Position numbers and translations under genes: made by a program. A stretch of 64,000 nt of DNA from Anaerolineales bacterium (GTDB lineage Bacteria; Chloroflexota; Anaerolineae; Anaerolineales; UBA4823), in the NCBI GenBank assembly GCA_025057645.1, contig JANXBJ010000001.1, forward strand, positions 678,357 through 742,356. Direction: 5' to 3'. The notes beneath the pieces are model-generated. The model searched no databases. It saw only the letters and a program-made list of their open reading frames with translations, and was not told the origin of the DNA. How positions within the stretch are numbered: position 1 is the stretch's first letter; every line of letters starts with the position of its first letter. Positions 10,006 through 15,857 of this stretch are shown here, one piece after another.

Positions 10006-10034
10006 ATCTTACTATGAGCACTTTATTTTGTCAA
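10006..10034 (-). promoter_or_regulatory. Promoter of the CAU tRNA
   Basis: Minus strand: consensus -35 TTGACA (10029-10034), 17-nt spacer, -10 TAAGAT (10006-10011). The predicted start near 9999 is only about 2 nt before the mature tRNA 5' end. The -35 box overlaps the stop region of the aspartate kinase gene. Confidence 0.8.
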
Positions 10035-11464
10035 CCGGCCTTTTCATTCTTCGACACAATGAGCTCGTGGATTGCCCGCACCGCTCTTTGCTCATCTGCT
10101 TTATCGATCACAATGGAAATGGAGACCTCTGAAGAACCTTGCGCAATAGCGATCACATTGATTCCCTGTGAGCCCAGCTTTCCAAAGATCCGTCCGGCGA
10201 TTCCCGGAGTACTGCGCATGGCTGCGCCAACAATCGTTACAATGACCACCTCATCCGTTGCCCAGATCCGATCGATATCCCTCGTTGCCAGTTCACGGCT
10301 GAAAGCCTCGTTCAGCGAGCGCAGGACGGTCTCGACCGAGCTTAGCGGAACAGCAAAGCAGATCGATTGTTCAGAGGAAGCTTGAGTGATTAAGGGGACA
10401 CTCGTTCCTGTAGCAGCCACAGCGCCAAAGGCCCTCGCCGCTACCCCCGGCACTCCCAGCATTCCTCTTCCTTCAATAGTCACCAAAGCTTGGCCCTTGA
10501 TCGAGGTCACTGCTTTGATCTCACCGTCAAGTTGCCGGTCTGTTTCCAAAGTCAAAAGTGTTCCTGGGTGGGTGGGATTAAAAGTGTTCCGTACTCGGAT
10601 AATGATGCCCGCATCGATAAGGGGTTGCATCGTCTTAGGATGCACCACCTTCGCGCCATAATAAGCCAACTCACCGATCTCCCGAAAAGTCAACACGTCA
10701 ATTGTCGTTGCATCCGGCACAATTCGAGGGTCGGCGGTCATCACCCCGTCAACGTCCGTCCAAATCCACACTTCTGCTGCCGGTAAATATGCGCCGAGCA
10801 GGGCTGCCGAGTAATCGCTCCCTCCTCGCCCGAGGGTGGTGGTCGTTCCATCTTCGGTAGCTGCAATAAATCCTGTCACGACAGGGACAATGTTGGATTG
10901 GAGGATGGGCAAAAGAGTTTCTTTTACTTTTCTCTCGCTCTTTTCCCGAATCGGATGGGCTGCCTGATACGAGTGATCGGTTACGATAAGCTTTGTAGCA
11001 TCGATGGAGCGTGCAGGGATACCGCTGGAGTTTAGATATTCTGCAAAAATGCGCACACACAGCATCTCTCCGATCCCTGCAATTGCGTCTAGAACCCGCG
11101 GAGTAGCCTCACCGATAATATCAATAGCCCGACAATATTCCGCAAACATGCTAATCAACTGATCGATCTGTTGCTTTAGGAAGACCTTCCTTTCGGTCTC
11201 CGGAATCAACTCATCGACAACTTGGTAATGTCGGGTGGTGAGTGCTCCAGCCGCTTGCAACACCTGGTCGTAACGACGATTTTTCGCCATCTCTGTCGAA
11301 CGAAGTAGCTCATCCGTTACTCCAGCCATTGCCGAGAGAACCACTACGGGCATCCACCCCTCATGCAAAACATCCTTCACAATCTCTTTCACTCTTTTCA
11401 TAGCGTCACTGTTTCCGACAGATGTCCCCCCAAACTTCATCACTAGGAGTGGTTTTTCGTTCAT
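10031..11464 (-). CDS. Aspartate kinase with ACT domains
   Basis: Aspartate kinase, 477 aa, makes 4-phospho-aspartate, the first step toward threonine, methionine and lysine. It has the N-terminal KFGGTSVG motif, the kinase core with TLGRGGSDYSA, and two C-terminal ACT domains (from about residue 320) that normally bind an end-product amino acid. The N-terminal half looks more like the ThrA/LysC-type kinases than the short Bacillus type. There is no homoserine dehydrogenase domain. It overlaps the upstream ligase/peptidase gene by ATGA and is the last gene of an operon with a threonine-rich leader peptide, so threonine control by both attenuation and ACT feedback is plausible. Confidence 0.94.
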   Translation of the reverse strand: MNEKPLLVMKFGGTSVGNSDAMKRVKEIVKDVLHEGWMPVVVLSAMAGVTDELLRSTEMAKNRRYDQVLQAAGALTTRHYQVVDELIPETERKVFLKQQIDQLISMFAEYCRAIDIIGEATPRVLDAIAGIGEMLCVRIFAEYLNSSGIPARSIDATKLIVTDHSYQAAHPIREKSERKVKETLLPILQSNIVPVVTGFIAATEDGTTTTLGRGGSDYSAALLGAYLPAAEVWIWTDVDGVMTADPRIVPDATTIDVLTFREIGELAYYGAKVVHPKTMQPLIDAGIIIRVRNTFNPTHPGTLLTLETDRQLDGEIKAVTSIKGQALVTIEGRGMLGVPGVAARAFGAVAATGTSVPLITQASSEQSICFAVPLSSVETVLRSLNEAFSRELATRDIDRIWATDEVVIVTIVGAAMRSTPGIAGRIFGKLGSQGINVIAIAQGSSEVSISIVIDKADEQRAVRAIHELIVSKNEKAG

Positions 11465-14340
11465 CCTTCGCTCTCCTTGACCAAGAGAATGGGATGCGCC
11501 TCAAGCCGTTTTGCAAAAGCACTTAGAATGTCATAGTAAGGCCGGATACTTGGGATGTAGTGTCTTTCCTGAGCTCCGTGGGGATCCATCCCACTTTGAC
11601 CCCAGACCACCCCCTGTCCTTGGGGCGCAAAGCGAGCGCTCGTGGCCGGCAACTTTCTTCCGATCTTCGGAGCCTCCTGAACAACCTCCTTGTATGCCTC
11701 GAACAATAACTGCAAATAAGGGTTCTCCAAATCACAGCGGATTCCCCTTTCACAAACCTTAAGGTTCAGCTCCAACCCATTACGCTGACAAAGCTCCTGA
11801 AGCTCGCTAACCAACTGATCGACGTTCTCCTCAGGGATTGGCCGCACTTCGACTCCCATAATGGCAAACTCTGGAGAAACGTTATACACGCCCTCCTCGC
11901 CGATGCGCACAAAAGGAACTTGAAATTGAGAATTCCAACGATCCGGACTTGAAAGGGTGAGGCTGCGTTGAAACAATTCGATCATTTGCTGACGGAAGTC
12001 CAATAATTTTGTTGTCAGGTCTACCTTTACCTGCCCTCCAACCGAAGTCTGGCTTGTGTGAGCCTTGACCCCTCTGGCGAGGACATCGAACCGCATAATT
12101 CCTCGGTTTGAAGTGCAAATCTCACCCACAAGCTCGTCACCCCTCTCGCCAGTTCGCTCTCCGGCGATAAACAGGCTTGGCAGCCGATGACCCTCGCTGG
12201 CTAATTGATTCAGAACATGGGGCGTGCCCATGGGCTCATACTCCCCGTTCTCTTCATTGCCGACCAACAGCAAGTTGATCGGTGGATAGGGTTCACCCTG
12301 GAGAAGGCGATCCTTGAGCCACACCAAATAGGTGGCAACCACCGTTTTCATATCCGCCGCTCCTCGGCCCACCAAGTAATCCCCCTCAATCCGAGGCTGA
12401 AATTGGGAGTCATCCGGCGCAGGTGGCACTACATCAAAATGGCCACTCAGGGTAACCGCAGTGTAGAGATTTCCAGGAAAGCCGATCAACAAAGCAGGAT
12501 ATTTGTGTTTATTGAAATAGCGAACTTCCAGCCCATTGCGTTCAGCATAGTTACAAATAAAGGAAGCTGCGAAAGCAACATCCTCTAAACGCTCATGAGC
12601 ACAAGCGGTGACAGAAGGAATCTGGATTAGTTGCATCGCCAGATCGACGATTTCGCTGGGCTTGTCGCTATACACCTTTAGAACATGCAGAGGCCGAACC
12701 GGTTTGAACGAAATCGGGACTTCAGGATGTTGACGATATTCATCTCTACCCCGCTGGATCAGACTTTCTAATTTTACGGCTTCGTTGCCTAAGCGGTATA
12801 ACTCTGCCTGAATCGTAGCCAAGTCTTTTTTGACAGTCTCCTCGCGCTCCTCGGCCAATTTGCGCAAGAACTCAACCGGAATCTCCTCTACCTCGCCCAG
12901 CTCTTCTAAAACCCGCCGCCGCAGCTTTTGGGAGGTGTTCGGAGCCCCGCGAGACATCTCAACCAAGGGCCGCAAGAAGGGAACCACCTCTAGCCCTTCG
13001 GCCAAAGGCGCAAGTTCTTCTAGGGTCCAGCCCAAGAACTCTCGCACTCGAATCGGCTTCCCGGTGAGCGGGTTCTCGATTTCGGCATCCAGCCCATAGC
13101 GGGCAGCCTTTTCCTCGTTGCGGCGCGCCCGCTCAATGTCCTCGGCATCGTATCGAAAGCTGACCGCAAAGGAGGGGTCGCTATAGAAACGCAACAGCAA
13201 AAGATACTTAAACGTCAAGTTTGCGAGATCGGTCTCCAAATCATGTCCACCTTCGTCACACCGCACCTCAACCCTTGACATCGGGATATTAATGCGCGCT
13301 AGGAGATTTTGTATCTCGATTTGCCGAGCCATCTCTTCAGCTTGATCCTCTCGGCTTGCGGTATACAGACCCCGAGCGTATAACTGGCGCAATTGGTCGC
13401 TGGTGATAGCAATCAGCCGCTCGACCGGCTCGGAAAAAGAACGCGCCCGTACTGGCGTCCAGTTGTTGTTCCCAAAGCGGATGCCCTTGCGCACTAACTC
13501 GTATGAAATGCGCAAATAATCTTCATGGGAGCGGTAAAGGCCGGGTAAATCCAGCAGGATCGGATTGGGAAAAGTTAAGTTGCGGACCGAGTCTGCCTGG
13601 GCCAAAACGATTACCTGCTTGCCATTGCGATACTGGCTGACGAAAGGAGTCGAAGCAGAAGTGGCAATAAAAACTGCGGCAAAAGCCCGCATTAGTCGCG
13701 TGATACGGATATAGACATGATTCTTATACTCATCTAGGTGTTGAAAGGGCTGACTGATGTGATTGGGAAGGTTCTGGTCTTGATGAACAAAGTCCCACGA
13801 AAGCAGCGTCTCGGGTAGGGAAAGATTGGTATGGATTCCAGCGGTAGCCAACGCAGCCCCATAAAGATCGACACATCGTTCCAAGTAGCGCCGCTTAGCT
13901 AAGTTCCATGAACCTGGAATACAATCCTTTCCGAACTGGGGCTGAAAGAGCAAATTCCCATGCCAGTAATAGAAGCGTTCCCCAAATTTCTCGCTGGCTT
14001 GGTATAAAGCATTGATCAGAACCGCCTCGAGAACCCGGGCTTCATAGACAGCGCCCAGTAAGTGATAATAGGGCCGGGTGGCCCACTCGATCATCCAATG
14101 ATAGACTTCCAACTGCGACAGCGGGCGCAAGGAAGGCGGGATCATCTGGTCGCGAAGATAGTCCACAAACGAAATCCTCTCCGGACCGGAGCCAACCGTG
14201 AGGAGCGGCCAGAGGTTAGAGTCGAGCATATTCCACTCCAACTCATAGCCACAGATTCCTCCTTGTGGATTGGTCTGTTCAGCAACCTCTAGCGCATGAC
14301 GAAATTTCTCAACGAACAATTCAGGACTATACCCGCTCAT
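11461..14340 (-). CDS. Fusion of a glutamate-cysteine-ligase-like (GCS2/YbdK) domain and an M20 metallopeptidase
   Basis: Protein of 959 aa. Residues 1 to about 470 resemble the carboxylate-amine ligase family (GCS2/YbdK): an acidic strand GYELEWNMLD (31-40), HTNLSLPE (170-177) and ARRNEEKAARYGLDAEIENPLTG with REFLGW-LEELAPLAEGL (405-450), a close match to the conserved YbdK C-terminal block. Residues about 480-540 form a charged helical linker. Residues 550-959 are an M20 peptidase with its metal and catalytic residues: H634 and D636 in SGHFDVVPP, D663 in GRGAADMK, E696-E697 in GNEENGE and a histidine in DPHGAQERH. ATG 14340 has GGAGG upstream and overlaps the aminotransferase stop; an ATG at 14541 lies inside that gene. 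Substrate unknown. A ligase and an amide hydrolase in one chain suggests putting on and removing an acyl or gamma-glutamyl group. Confidence 0.85.
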   Translation of the reverse strand: MSGYSPELFVEKFRHALEVAEQTNPQGGICGYELEWNMLDSNLWPLLTVGSGPERISFVDYLRDQMIPPSLRPLSQLEVYHWMIEWATRPYYHLLGAVYEARVLEAVLINALYQASEKFGERFYYWHGNLLFQPQFGKDCIPGSWNLAKRRYLERCVDLYGAALATAGIHTNLSLPETLLSWDFVHQDQNLPNHISQPFQHLDEYKNHVYIRITRLMRAFAAVFIATSASTPFVSQYRNGKQVIVLAQADSVRNLTFPNPILLDLPGLYRSHEDYLRISYELVRKGIRFGNNNWTPVRARSFSEPVERLIAITSDQLRQLYARGLYTASREDQAEEMARQIEIQNLLARINIPMSRVEVRCDEGGHDLETDLANLTFKYLLLLRFYSDPSFAVSFRYDAEDIERARRNEEKAARYGLDAEIENPLTGKPIRVREFLGWTLEELAPLAEGLEVVPFLRPLVEMSRGAPNTSQKLRRRVLEELGEVEEIPVEFLRKLAEEREETVKKDLATIQAELYRLGNEAVKLESLIQRGRDEYRQHPEVPISFKPVRPLHVLKVYSDKPSEIVDLAMQLIQIPSVTACAHERLEDVAFAASFICNYAERNGLEVRYFNKHKYPALLIGFPGNLYTAVTLSGHFDVVPPAPDDSQFQPRIEGDYLVGRGAADMKTVVATYLVWLKDRLLQGEPYPPINLLLVGNEENGEYEPMGTPHVLNQLASEGHRLPSLFIAGERTGERGDELVGEICTSNRGIMRFDVLARGVKAHTSQTSVGGQVKVDLTTKLLDFRQQMIELFQRSLTLSSPDRWNSQFQVPFVRIGEEGVYNVSPEFAIMGVEVRPIPEENVDQLVSELQELCQRNGLELNLKVCERGIRCDLENPYLQLLFEAYKEVVQEAPKIGRKLPATSARFAPQGQGVVWGQSGMDPHGAQERHYIPSIRPYYDILSAFAKRLEAHPILLVKESEG

Positions 14341-15650
14341 GAGACCTCCAAACTCTTCAAACCCTGAACCAAGCGTTCCAACGCACCCATAGTCCTCTCG
14401 ACCGGTGTGGCATAGGAAAAGCGAATCCATTCCCCTCCATAAGCTGAAAAGAACGCCCCAGGGACAATCGCTAAACCAAACTCCTCGGCGAAATACTGAC
14501 CCATCGGCTCGGTATCTTTCCAACCTTTCGCTCTCAGCCAATCGCCGACGTGGATGAAGGCATAGTAGCCTTTACCGAGAATATAAGTGAAGTGGTGCTC
14601 GTCCAAAAACTTTTGCAGGACTTTACGGCTAGCGTTGGTCGGTTCAACGATCGGTCTTGTCGCTTTATCGTACCCCATCTTATAGGCCGCCATCGCCACT
14701 GCTAGGGAGAAATAAGAGGGCATTACTGTATGAGAGGCTCGAGAGACAATAAACTTAATCACATCCTCCGAAGCAATCAGATGACTATTGCGAATGTTTG
14801 ACCCCCCCAAACTTTTCGTTATCCCATCGAGGAAGATCAGCCGCTTGCGCTCCTCCTTGGAAAAGTTCTGCAAGAAGGAGTTGAGGTCCATCGGCTGCTC
14901 GTCAGTCACATAATGATACATCCAGTCGAACAACACAAAAGCAACCCCCAATTCCAATGCTCGCTTCGCTAGGCTTACTTGTCTTTCGACCGATAAGGTC
15001 AAGCCAGTTGGATTGTCGGGATTGGTAATTACTAGGCAGGCGACTTTTCTTCCTGACTTGGACACAAACTCTACACACTCCTTGATACTATCCTCCGAGT
15101 AAGCCCAACCTTCTTCGGGTCTTCCCGGGGCATAAAGGACATTTGCTCCAATTCCATAGGGCCCCCAGTTGTAAGAAATCCAAGGGACACGCGAGACGAT
15201 AATAACATCTCCGATCCTTCCATAGCCCAAAGACAACATCGCCTGATAAGCCTTAACCAGGGCATCCCGTCCCCCCGCTGTGCCTACGACATTGGCAGGG
15301 GTGATCCCTGAGGAGGCATCCAGCTTCCAATAGTCTTCAATAACCGAACGGCGAAAGTCATCTGTCCCATAGGGCATATCGTAAGAAGTTCCGTGCTTGA
15401 TTTGCATTTCGGCTGCTTTCTCCAGAATTTCCGGTAACACCCCGGGCAAACTTGCGCCGCCGTCCCCCTGCGAAGCGTCATAAATCGGCTGGTTAGGATT
15501 TCTGTCCTGAAACACTTTCAAGGATTTGTTGATCAAAAACATCCTTGAGGGAGGAATATCCATCATCCTGCCAAGGTAATCATTCACCGGGATTAAGTTC
15601 TCCTGTGGCACGGCGAAGACAGGCTGGTCAAGGGGGGCGAGATTTTGCAT
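14337..15650 (-). CDS. Class I/II PLP-dependent aminotransferase
   Basis: Fold-type I aminotransferase, 437 aa. Visible landmarks are the substrate/PLP region YGTDDFRRSV, NPDNPTG with the PLP-ring Asn-Asp, a FDWMYHYV strand, the DGITKSLGGSNIRNSHL block with the Schiff-base Lys, and the C-terminal carboxylate-binding WIRFSYAT. It is a full-length enzyme, but it does not clearly match AspC, HisC or DapL, so the substrate is unknown. It is the first structural gene of the attenuated operon, with AAGGAG 11 nt before the ATG, and overlaps the ligase/M20 gene by 4 nt. Confidence 0.9.
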   Translation of the reverse strand: MQNLAPLDQPVFAVPQENLIPVNDYLGRMMDIPPSRMFLINKSLKVFQDRNPNQPIYDASQGDGGASLPGVLPEILEKAAEMQIKHGTSYDMPYGTDDFRRSVIEDYWKLDASSGITPANVVGTAGGRDALVKAYQAMLSLGYGRIGDVIIVSRVPWISYNWGPYGIGANVLYAPGRPEEGWAYSEDSIKECVEFVSKSGRKVACLVITNPDNPTGLTLSVERQVSLAKRALELGVAFVLFDWMYHYVTDEQPMDLNSFLQNFSKEERKRLIFLDGITKSLGGSNIRNSHLIASEDVIKFIVSRASHTVMPSYFSLAVAMAAYKMGYDKATRPIVEPTNASRKVLQKFLDEHHFTYILGKGYYAFIHVGDWLRAKGWKDTEPMGQYFAEEFGLAIVPGAFFSAYGGEWIRFSYATPVERTMGALERLVQGLKSLEVS

Positions 15651-15681: not shown

Positions 15682-15752
15682 TAAAAACGCCCCGGGCGGG
15701 GCGTTTGAGATCATAACTAAGACAGTTTGGACAAGTTACGCGCAAACGCCCC
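15682..15752 (-). promoter_or_regulatory. Transcription attenuator: terminator with competing antiterminator arm
   Basis: The RNA (minus strand) carries AAACGCCCC (15698-15706), loop GCCC, GGGGCGTTT (15685-15693) and then TTATTAT: an intrinsic terminator just before the aminotransferase ribosome site. The 9-mer GGGGCGTTT also occurs inside the leader peptide ORF at 15744-15752, where it can pair instead with AAACGCCCC to form an antiterminator. A third alternative pairs GCGCAA (15795-15800) with TTGCGC (15740-15745) and hides that 9-mer. This is the standard layout of ribosome-controlled attenuation. Confidence 0.85.
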
Positions 15753-15819
15753 ACCGCTCCGGGTTAACCGTAGTGGTCATCCGAGGGGTGGTTGTTGCGC
15801 AATCTATACTGCTTCTCAT
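15736..15819 (-). CDS. Threonine-rich leader peptide of the aminotransferase/ligase/aspartate kinase operon
   Basis: Short ORF of 27 codons. It starts with MRSSIDCATTTP, has a second run MTTTV (Thr codons ACA ACC ACC and ACC ACT ACG) and ends in WGVCA before TAA. Six of 27 residues are threonine. The ATG is 10 nt after the -10 box, so the mRNA should have almost no 5' leader. The antiterminator arm lies in codons 23-25 of the part after the second Thr run, so a ribosome stalled on Thr codons leaves it free, while one reaching the stop covers it. The geometry and the aspartate kinase downstream match thrL-type control. An internal in-frame ATG (15780) precedes the second run. Confidence 0.75.
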   Translation of the reverse strand: MRSSIDCATTTPRMTTTVNPERWGVCA

Positions 15820-15828
15820 TAAGGCGAT

Positions 15829-15857
15829 AATATATCACCGGTGAGATATTCCGTCAA
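15829..15857 (-). promoter_or_regulatory. Promoter of the attenuated operon
   Basis: Minus strand: -35 TTGACG (15852-15857), 17-nt spacer, -10 TATATT (15829-15834). The predicted start (about 15820-15822) is at or just before the leader peptide ATG. It lies in the gap after the prenyl synthase stop, so the operon has its own promoter. Confidence 0.82.

Follow-up and report, generated by a model that had tools for sequence, protein, structure and literature searches.

The window, a 64-kb stretch of DNA from a 3.1-Mb genome assembly, contains on its minus strand a three-gene operon encoding an aminotransferase, a ligase/peptidase fusion and an aspartate kinase. Ahead of the first gene, read on the same strand from 15857 to 15682, lies a leader region in which a promoter is followed by a short Thr-rich open reading frame (ORF) and an intrinsic terminator. 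The features are as follows.

15829–15857 (−): promoter TTGACG-17-TATATT, with TTGACG at 15857–15852, a 17-nt spacer and TATATT at 15834–15829
15736–15819 (−): leader peptide ORF MRSSIDCATTTPRMTTTVNPERWGVCA, 27 codons plus stop, with ATG at 15819–15817 and TAA at 15738–15736
15787–15795 (−): first Thr run, codons 9–11 (ACA ACC ACC), conserved in the genus
15769–15777 (−): second Thr run, codons 15–17 (ACC ACT ACG), with Met14 just before it, conserved in the genus
15740–15800 (−): protector hairpin (1:2), pairing GCGCAA (15800–15795) with TTGCGC (15745–15740) and CCACC (15791–15787) with GGTGG (15755–15751)
15743–15752 (−): region 2, the antiterminator upstream strand GGGGCGUUUG, from pairing, conservation and folding analyses
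15698–15707 (−): region 3, CAAACGCCCC, which holds the terminator 5' arm and is the alternative partner of region 2
15685–15706 (−): intrinsic terminator stem-loop (3:4), AAACGCCCC-GCCC-GGGGCGTTT, 9 bp of which 6 are G-C, with a U tract after it
14337–15650 (−): class I aminotransferase (PF00155), first gene of the operon
11461–14340 (−): YbdK/glutamate-cysteine ligase fold domain fused to an M20 (DapE/ArgE-like) peptidase
10031–11464 (−): aspartate kinase with ACT domains

The leader ATG lies 9 nt 3' of the −10 box, and the terminator ends approximately 35 nt short of the aminotransferase ATG. The sequence GGGGCGTTT is present twice, once as the terminator 3' arm (15693–15685) and once within the leader ORF (15752–15744), where it begins at codon 23, six codons past the second Thr run. 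We re-read every detail that the first-pass annotation had reported here (the promoter, the 27-codon ORF, its two Thr runs, the terminator, the duplicated 9-mer and the GCGCAA/TTGCGC hairpin) and found each to be correct, and our ORF and domain analysis agrees with its description of the genes behind the leader as an aminotransferase-ligase/peptidase-aspartate kinase operon. A search of both strands of the 64 kb for a promoter followed after 5–12 nt by a short ORF with a high content of Thr/Asn, or of any one residue, returned this leader as the sole match. Compared with its own dinucleotide shuffles, the leader RNA is predicted to fold more stably (z −2.9).

Each gene of the operon overlaps the next by 4 bp, with ATGA at the aminotransferase/ligase junction, and the ligase/M20 gene likely starts at the ATG at 14340 within the mechanical ORF 14541–11461. 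The first gene, which is also carried by named Anaerolineales and Chloroflexota metagenome-assembled genomes, encodes a divergent class I enzyme whose nearest solved relatives are aspartate aminotransferases. A role as the sole aspartate aminotransferase found no support: the genome holds 17 other PF00155 matches, nine of them scoring higher. The ligase domain has the fold of YbdK, glutamate-cysteine ligase and PafA (structure model pLDDT 83; Foldseek E 8e-9), and the second domain of the fusion is an M20, DapE/ArgE-like domain. In some families the M20 part alone is retained (L262, L265), and in others neither part is found beside the aminotransferase (L252–L261). The aspartate kinase of the operon is the only full-length one found in the genome.

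Folding the window leader around a modelled ribosome revealed a predicted structural switch. The probability of the terminator was 0.76 without a ribosome, fell to 0.00 when any of codons 7–17, a range that includes either Thr run, lay in the A site, and rose to 0.95–0.97 with the ribosome anywhere from codon 20 to the stop. Ribosome-position folding thus reproduced for the window the logic proposed at first reading, in which a stall on Thr gives antitermination and a ribosome at the stop codon gives termination. In several relatives the antiterminator is predicted to form while the terminator is still incomplete, but the full-length RNA at equilibrium is predicted to favour the terminator despite a stalled ribosome, and the switch there must therefore depend on the order or kinetics of folding.

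Judging from the sequence and the folding models, we consider it highly probable that the window contains a ribosome-mediated transcription attenuator of the leader-peptide type. The transcript would begin on the leader ATG or no more than about 3 nt from it; leaderless initiation is predicted here from promoter-ATG spacing. A ribosome coupled to the polymerase would then initiate on a nearly leaderless message and read the 27-residue peptide. When charged tRNA-Thr is scarce, it would pause in the codon 9–17 region; in relatives a shortage of tRNA-Asn would pause it as well, and so would one of tRNA-Met where an aspartate kinase lies in the operon. The paused ribosome would cover the 5' half of the protector hairpin and free GGGGCGUUU to pair with AAACGCCCC, a pairing expected to block the terminator and allow the aminotransferase-ligase/peptidase-aspartate kinase operon to be transcribed. 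With plentiful Thr the ribosome would reach the stop codon, GGGGCGUUU would be covered and the terminator would form.

We searched for homologues of the first gene in relatives and in class and order sets, and read 127 upstream regions from the class Anaerolineae. Leaders were called promoter-first, as a TTGAC-17-TAnnnT promoter followed after 6–11 nt by a short ORF, with a ranking blind to peptide content. This rule yielded a short ORF in 86 of the 127 regions, and dropping five (four unrelated, plus L120, which is without Thr/Asn) left 81 leaders spread over many genera. The promoter spacer is 17 nt in 80 of these 81, and a hairpin of at least 7 bp is present in 72. The distance from the −10 box to the ATG runs from 6 to 11 nt, most often 8 and then 10, and this conserved spacing is what a leaderless start requires. 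The dropped L120 (G490) has the same promoter and terminator around a leader, MLSRSQCFYPYFKCEIQ, that contains neither Thr nor Asn. About one-third of the homologous genes have no leader by the rule used, examples being L011, L017, L022, L023, L027, L028 and L030, which belong to the same family, together with families f13 and f60. Both the Thr codons and the paired arms, the elements whose conservation the first-pass annotation had suggested comparing among relatives, are conserved.

Conservation extends to the alternative pairings. Across the six species of the genus, nearly all pairs of 1:2, 2:3 and 3:4 are kept; in protector hairpin 1:2, 10 of 11 pairs are kept in all six, and one compensatory change replaces A-U by G-C. 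The antiterminator strand begins at about codon 18–25 in most leaders, shortly past the Thr/Asn cluster. Among 37 non-redundant leaders, the antiterminator strand is predicted to pair more stably with its own terminator arm than with arms swapped in from other species (−21.2 vs −18.8 kcal/mol; permutation p<5e-5), revealing cognate covariation between the leader ORF and its own terminator.

The leader ORF also bears the mark of in-frame codon selection. In 43 non-redundant leaders, compared with dinucleotide shuffles, Thr occurs 222 times vs 118 expected (z 12.0) and Asn 137 times vs 55 expected (z 12.9), while Met, Asp, Ile and Lys show no enrichment in this set and the other two reading frames show nothing like the Thr/Asn enrichment. 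Third-position bias over the whole leader ORF was not significant (p 0.13). Where independent close pairs differ by a single base within a Thr/Asn codon, the codon still reads Thr or Asn in 29 of 44 cases vs 15.7 expected (p 4e-5, a value whose weight is affected by this test having been picked after the whole-ORF test failed). This codon constraint suggests that the leader is translated.

The sensed residues differ between operon types. Leaders of aminotransferase-ligase operons without the kinase are enriched in Thr and Asn (z 10.7 and 12.3) with Met at −0.6, and those of stand-alone aspartate kinase genes in Thr and Met (z 10.0 and 7.2) with Asn at 1.4. Aminotransferase-ligase-kinase leaders, the type found in the window, show all three (z Thr 8.8, Met 4.6, Asn 3.3) in a set of nine leaders from three genera that are not independent, and in the window's own genus, with the kinase in the operon, the leaders likewise show Thr, Met and Asn. 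Family f34, in which the aminotransferase stands alone, gave z values of 8.5 for Thr, 5.3 for Asn and 4.7 for Met; its start codon lies 25–46 nt past the −10 box, leaving a real 5'UTR, so that its leaders are not leaderless. Elsewhere in the order aspartate kinase genes stand alone, and 17 of the 65 examined have their own Thr+Met leader under the leaderless rule; others have a leadered version. Such Thr+Met leaders before stand-alone aspartate kinase genes of other families are L163, L165 and L193–L238. This split of z values by operon type indicates that the sensed residues track the controlled genes. The original description of the element as threonine-type therefore holds for Thr, which is enriched throughout, and fails as a Thr-only reading, since relatives combine Thr with Asn and add Met where an aspartate kinase is in the operon. 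Within the genus, no comparable Thr/Asn leader was seen at the loci for asparagine synthetase or homoserine dehydrogenase. The lack of Lys enrichment would be in keeping with a different pathway to lysine, and a lysW-like gene is present in the same genome.

Matching codon and operon content offers a natural experiment on the evolution of multi-amino-acid sensing, and a clue to the role of the uncharacterised aminotransferase and ligase/peptidase. Joint sensing of Asn and Thr points to a role in supplying the aspartate pool, and the compounds made by these two enzymes most likely feed the aspartate-family pool. The link between the amino acid sensed and the amino acid made is clear for the aspartate kinase only.

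We weighed three other accounts of the leader. The peptide itself might act, either as a stalling nascent chain or in trans in the manner of peTrpL, with codon-dependent pausing playing no part; trans action has been shown for the leader peptide of a leaderless attenuator (PMC7298713), and the relatives in family f12 are alike in their C-terminal residues. However, the peptide sequences diverge widely while retaining their Thr/Asn content, and the C-terminal residues that are conserved fall on the antiterminator strand, whose RNA pairing accounts for their conservation. We regard this account as very unlikely.

Scarcely any probability attaches to the hairpin being a mere terminator or insulator between the upstream prenyl synthase gene and the operon, next to an ORF that is Thr-rich by chance. 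The prenyl synthase gene does lie on the same strand (16832–15873), and some leader-less relatives (L011, L023, L027, L030) retain a hairpin at the same place; but the promoter is upstream of the hairpin, which would then block the operon's own promoter, and family f12 keeps the leader although its upstream neighbour differs. The in-frame Thr/Asn enrichment and the species-specific pairing of leader to terminator arm likewise argue against chance. Control of the terminator by a ligand-binding riboswitch, T-box or RNA-binding protein site, with the ORF incidental, is just as improbable: the leader is structured and has alternative folds (z −2.9), but it matches no Rfam family at gathering score (chance matches only, up to E 10), and it is codon meaning rather than an RNA core that is conserved, and we rejected a riboswitch or T-box on these grounds.

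Attenuation by a translated leader peptide is a textbook mechanism, and the thrL attenuator of Escherichia coli thrABC is among the nearest known counterparts of the attenuator proposed here: in both, a Thr-rich leader peptide and a terminator/antiterminator switch control an aspartate kinase. The second residue is Ile in E. coli and Asn or Met here, and the present operon differs further in beginning with an aminotransferase and a ligase/peptidase, in having little or no 5'UTR and in belonging to another phylum; the Rfam covariance model of the threonine operon leader does not match the window leader. Leaderless leader peptides have been described in Streptomyces lividans (leuL, thrL before thrS, and metL; PMC8079986), where, as predicted here from spacing, an ORF with regulatory codons stands at the 5' end of the transcript. 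The S. lividans leaders precede other genes in another phylum, and its thrL contains two Thr codons and lacks a clear terminator, whereas the window leader has two Thr runs and a strong terminator. In Sinorhizobium meliloti, trpL (peTrpL) is a leader-peptide attenuator with a leaderless ORF, as is predicted here, and a trans function has been shown for it (PMC7298713); it belongs to an alphaproteobacterium and uses Trp codons, in contrast to the Thr (with Asn or Met) codons here.

According to a 2010 survey, Proteobacteria and Actinobacteria were the only groups with known leader-peptide attenuation, to which the survey itself added Firmicutes (PMC2965389). Leaderless genes are reported to be few in Chloroflexi, at about 5% in 4 of 12 genomes (PMC3160421). 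Our literature search, with most subscription literature outside its reach, found no earlier report of leader-peptide attenuation in Chloroflexota. What is new is the phylum, the combination of Thr with Asn (and Met), the operon and the form, predicted to be mostly leaderless; the mechanism itself is classical attenuation. Use of the same logic in a distant phylum, mostly without a ribosome-binding site, would be relevant to the choice between an ancient origin of attenuation and its repeated invention.

Taken across the class, these elements probably form a Chloroflexota-wide set of leader-peptide attenuators, mostly leaderless, that sense several aspartate-family amino acids jointly, with residues following the genes (Thr and Asn for aminotransferase operons, Thr and Met for aspartate kinase, and the full trio when these genes lie together in one operon), within a wider leaderless network for Phe/Tyr, Arg and Met. 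The leaderless promoter pattern occurs 20 times in the window's own genome vs once in a reversed control, with a similar excess in three relatives, where a few matches are tRNA promoters, so that the excess is not made up entirely of leaderless ORFs. In the own genome, four of the matches are clearly leaders biased towards particular amino acids and followed by a terminator: the window leader, one Phe/Tyr leader and two Arg leaders. The three additional types (Phe/Tyr, argG-like and lysW-like) recur in relatives; the gene names used for them, like the methionyl-tRNA-synthetase-like name below, come from N-terminal sequence recognised by eye, not from a family search.

Before a chorismate-mutase-like gene stands the Phe/Tyr-rich leader (TWFAFYRYFYYFGK; L386, G000:C11:275274), predicted to be leaderless, followed by a terminator and conserved across four species of this genus (with L432–L434). 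An Arg cluster (TRMRRRF in relatives) marks a further leader, also predicted to be leaderless, that precedes an argininosuccinate-synthase-like gene (argG) together with a terminator and is conserved in four species (L394, G000:C44:169926; L435–L437). Before the lysW-like gene lies a predicted leaderless Arg-rich leader with a terminator (L395, G000:C55:72629), near-identical in a second species (L438). One methionyl-tRNA-synthetase-like gene has a Met-rich leader in front of it (L451, G002:C38:6040).
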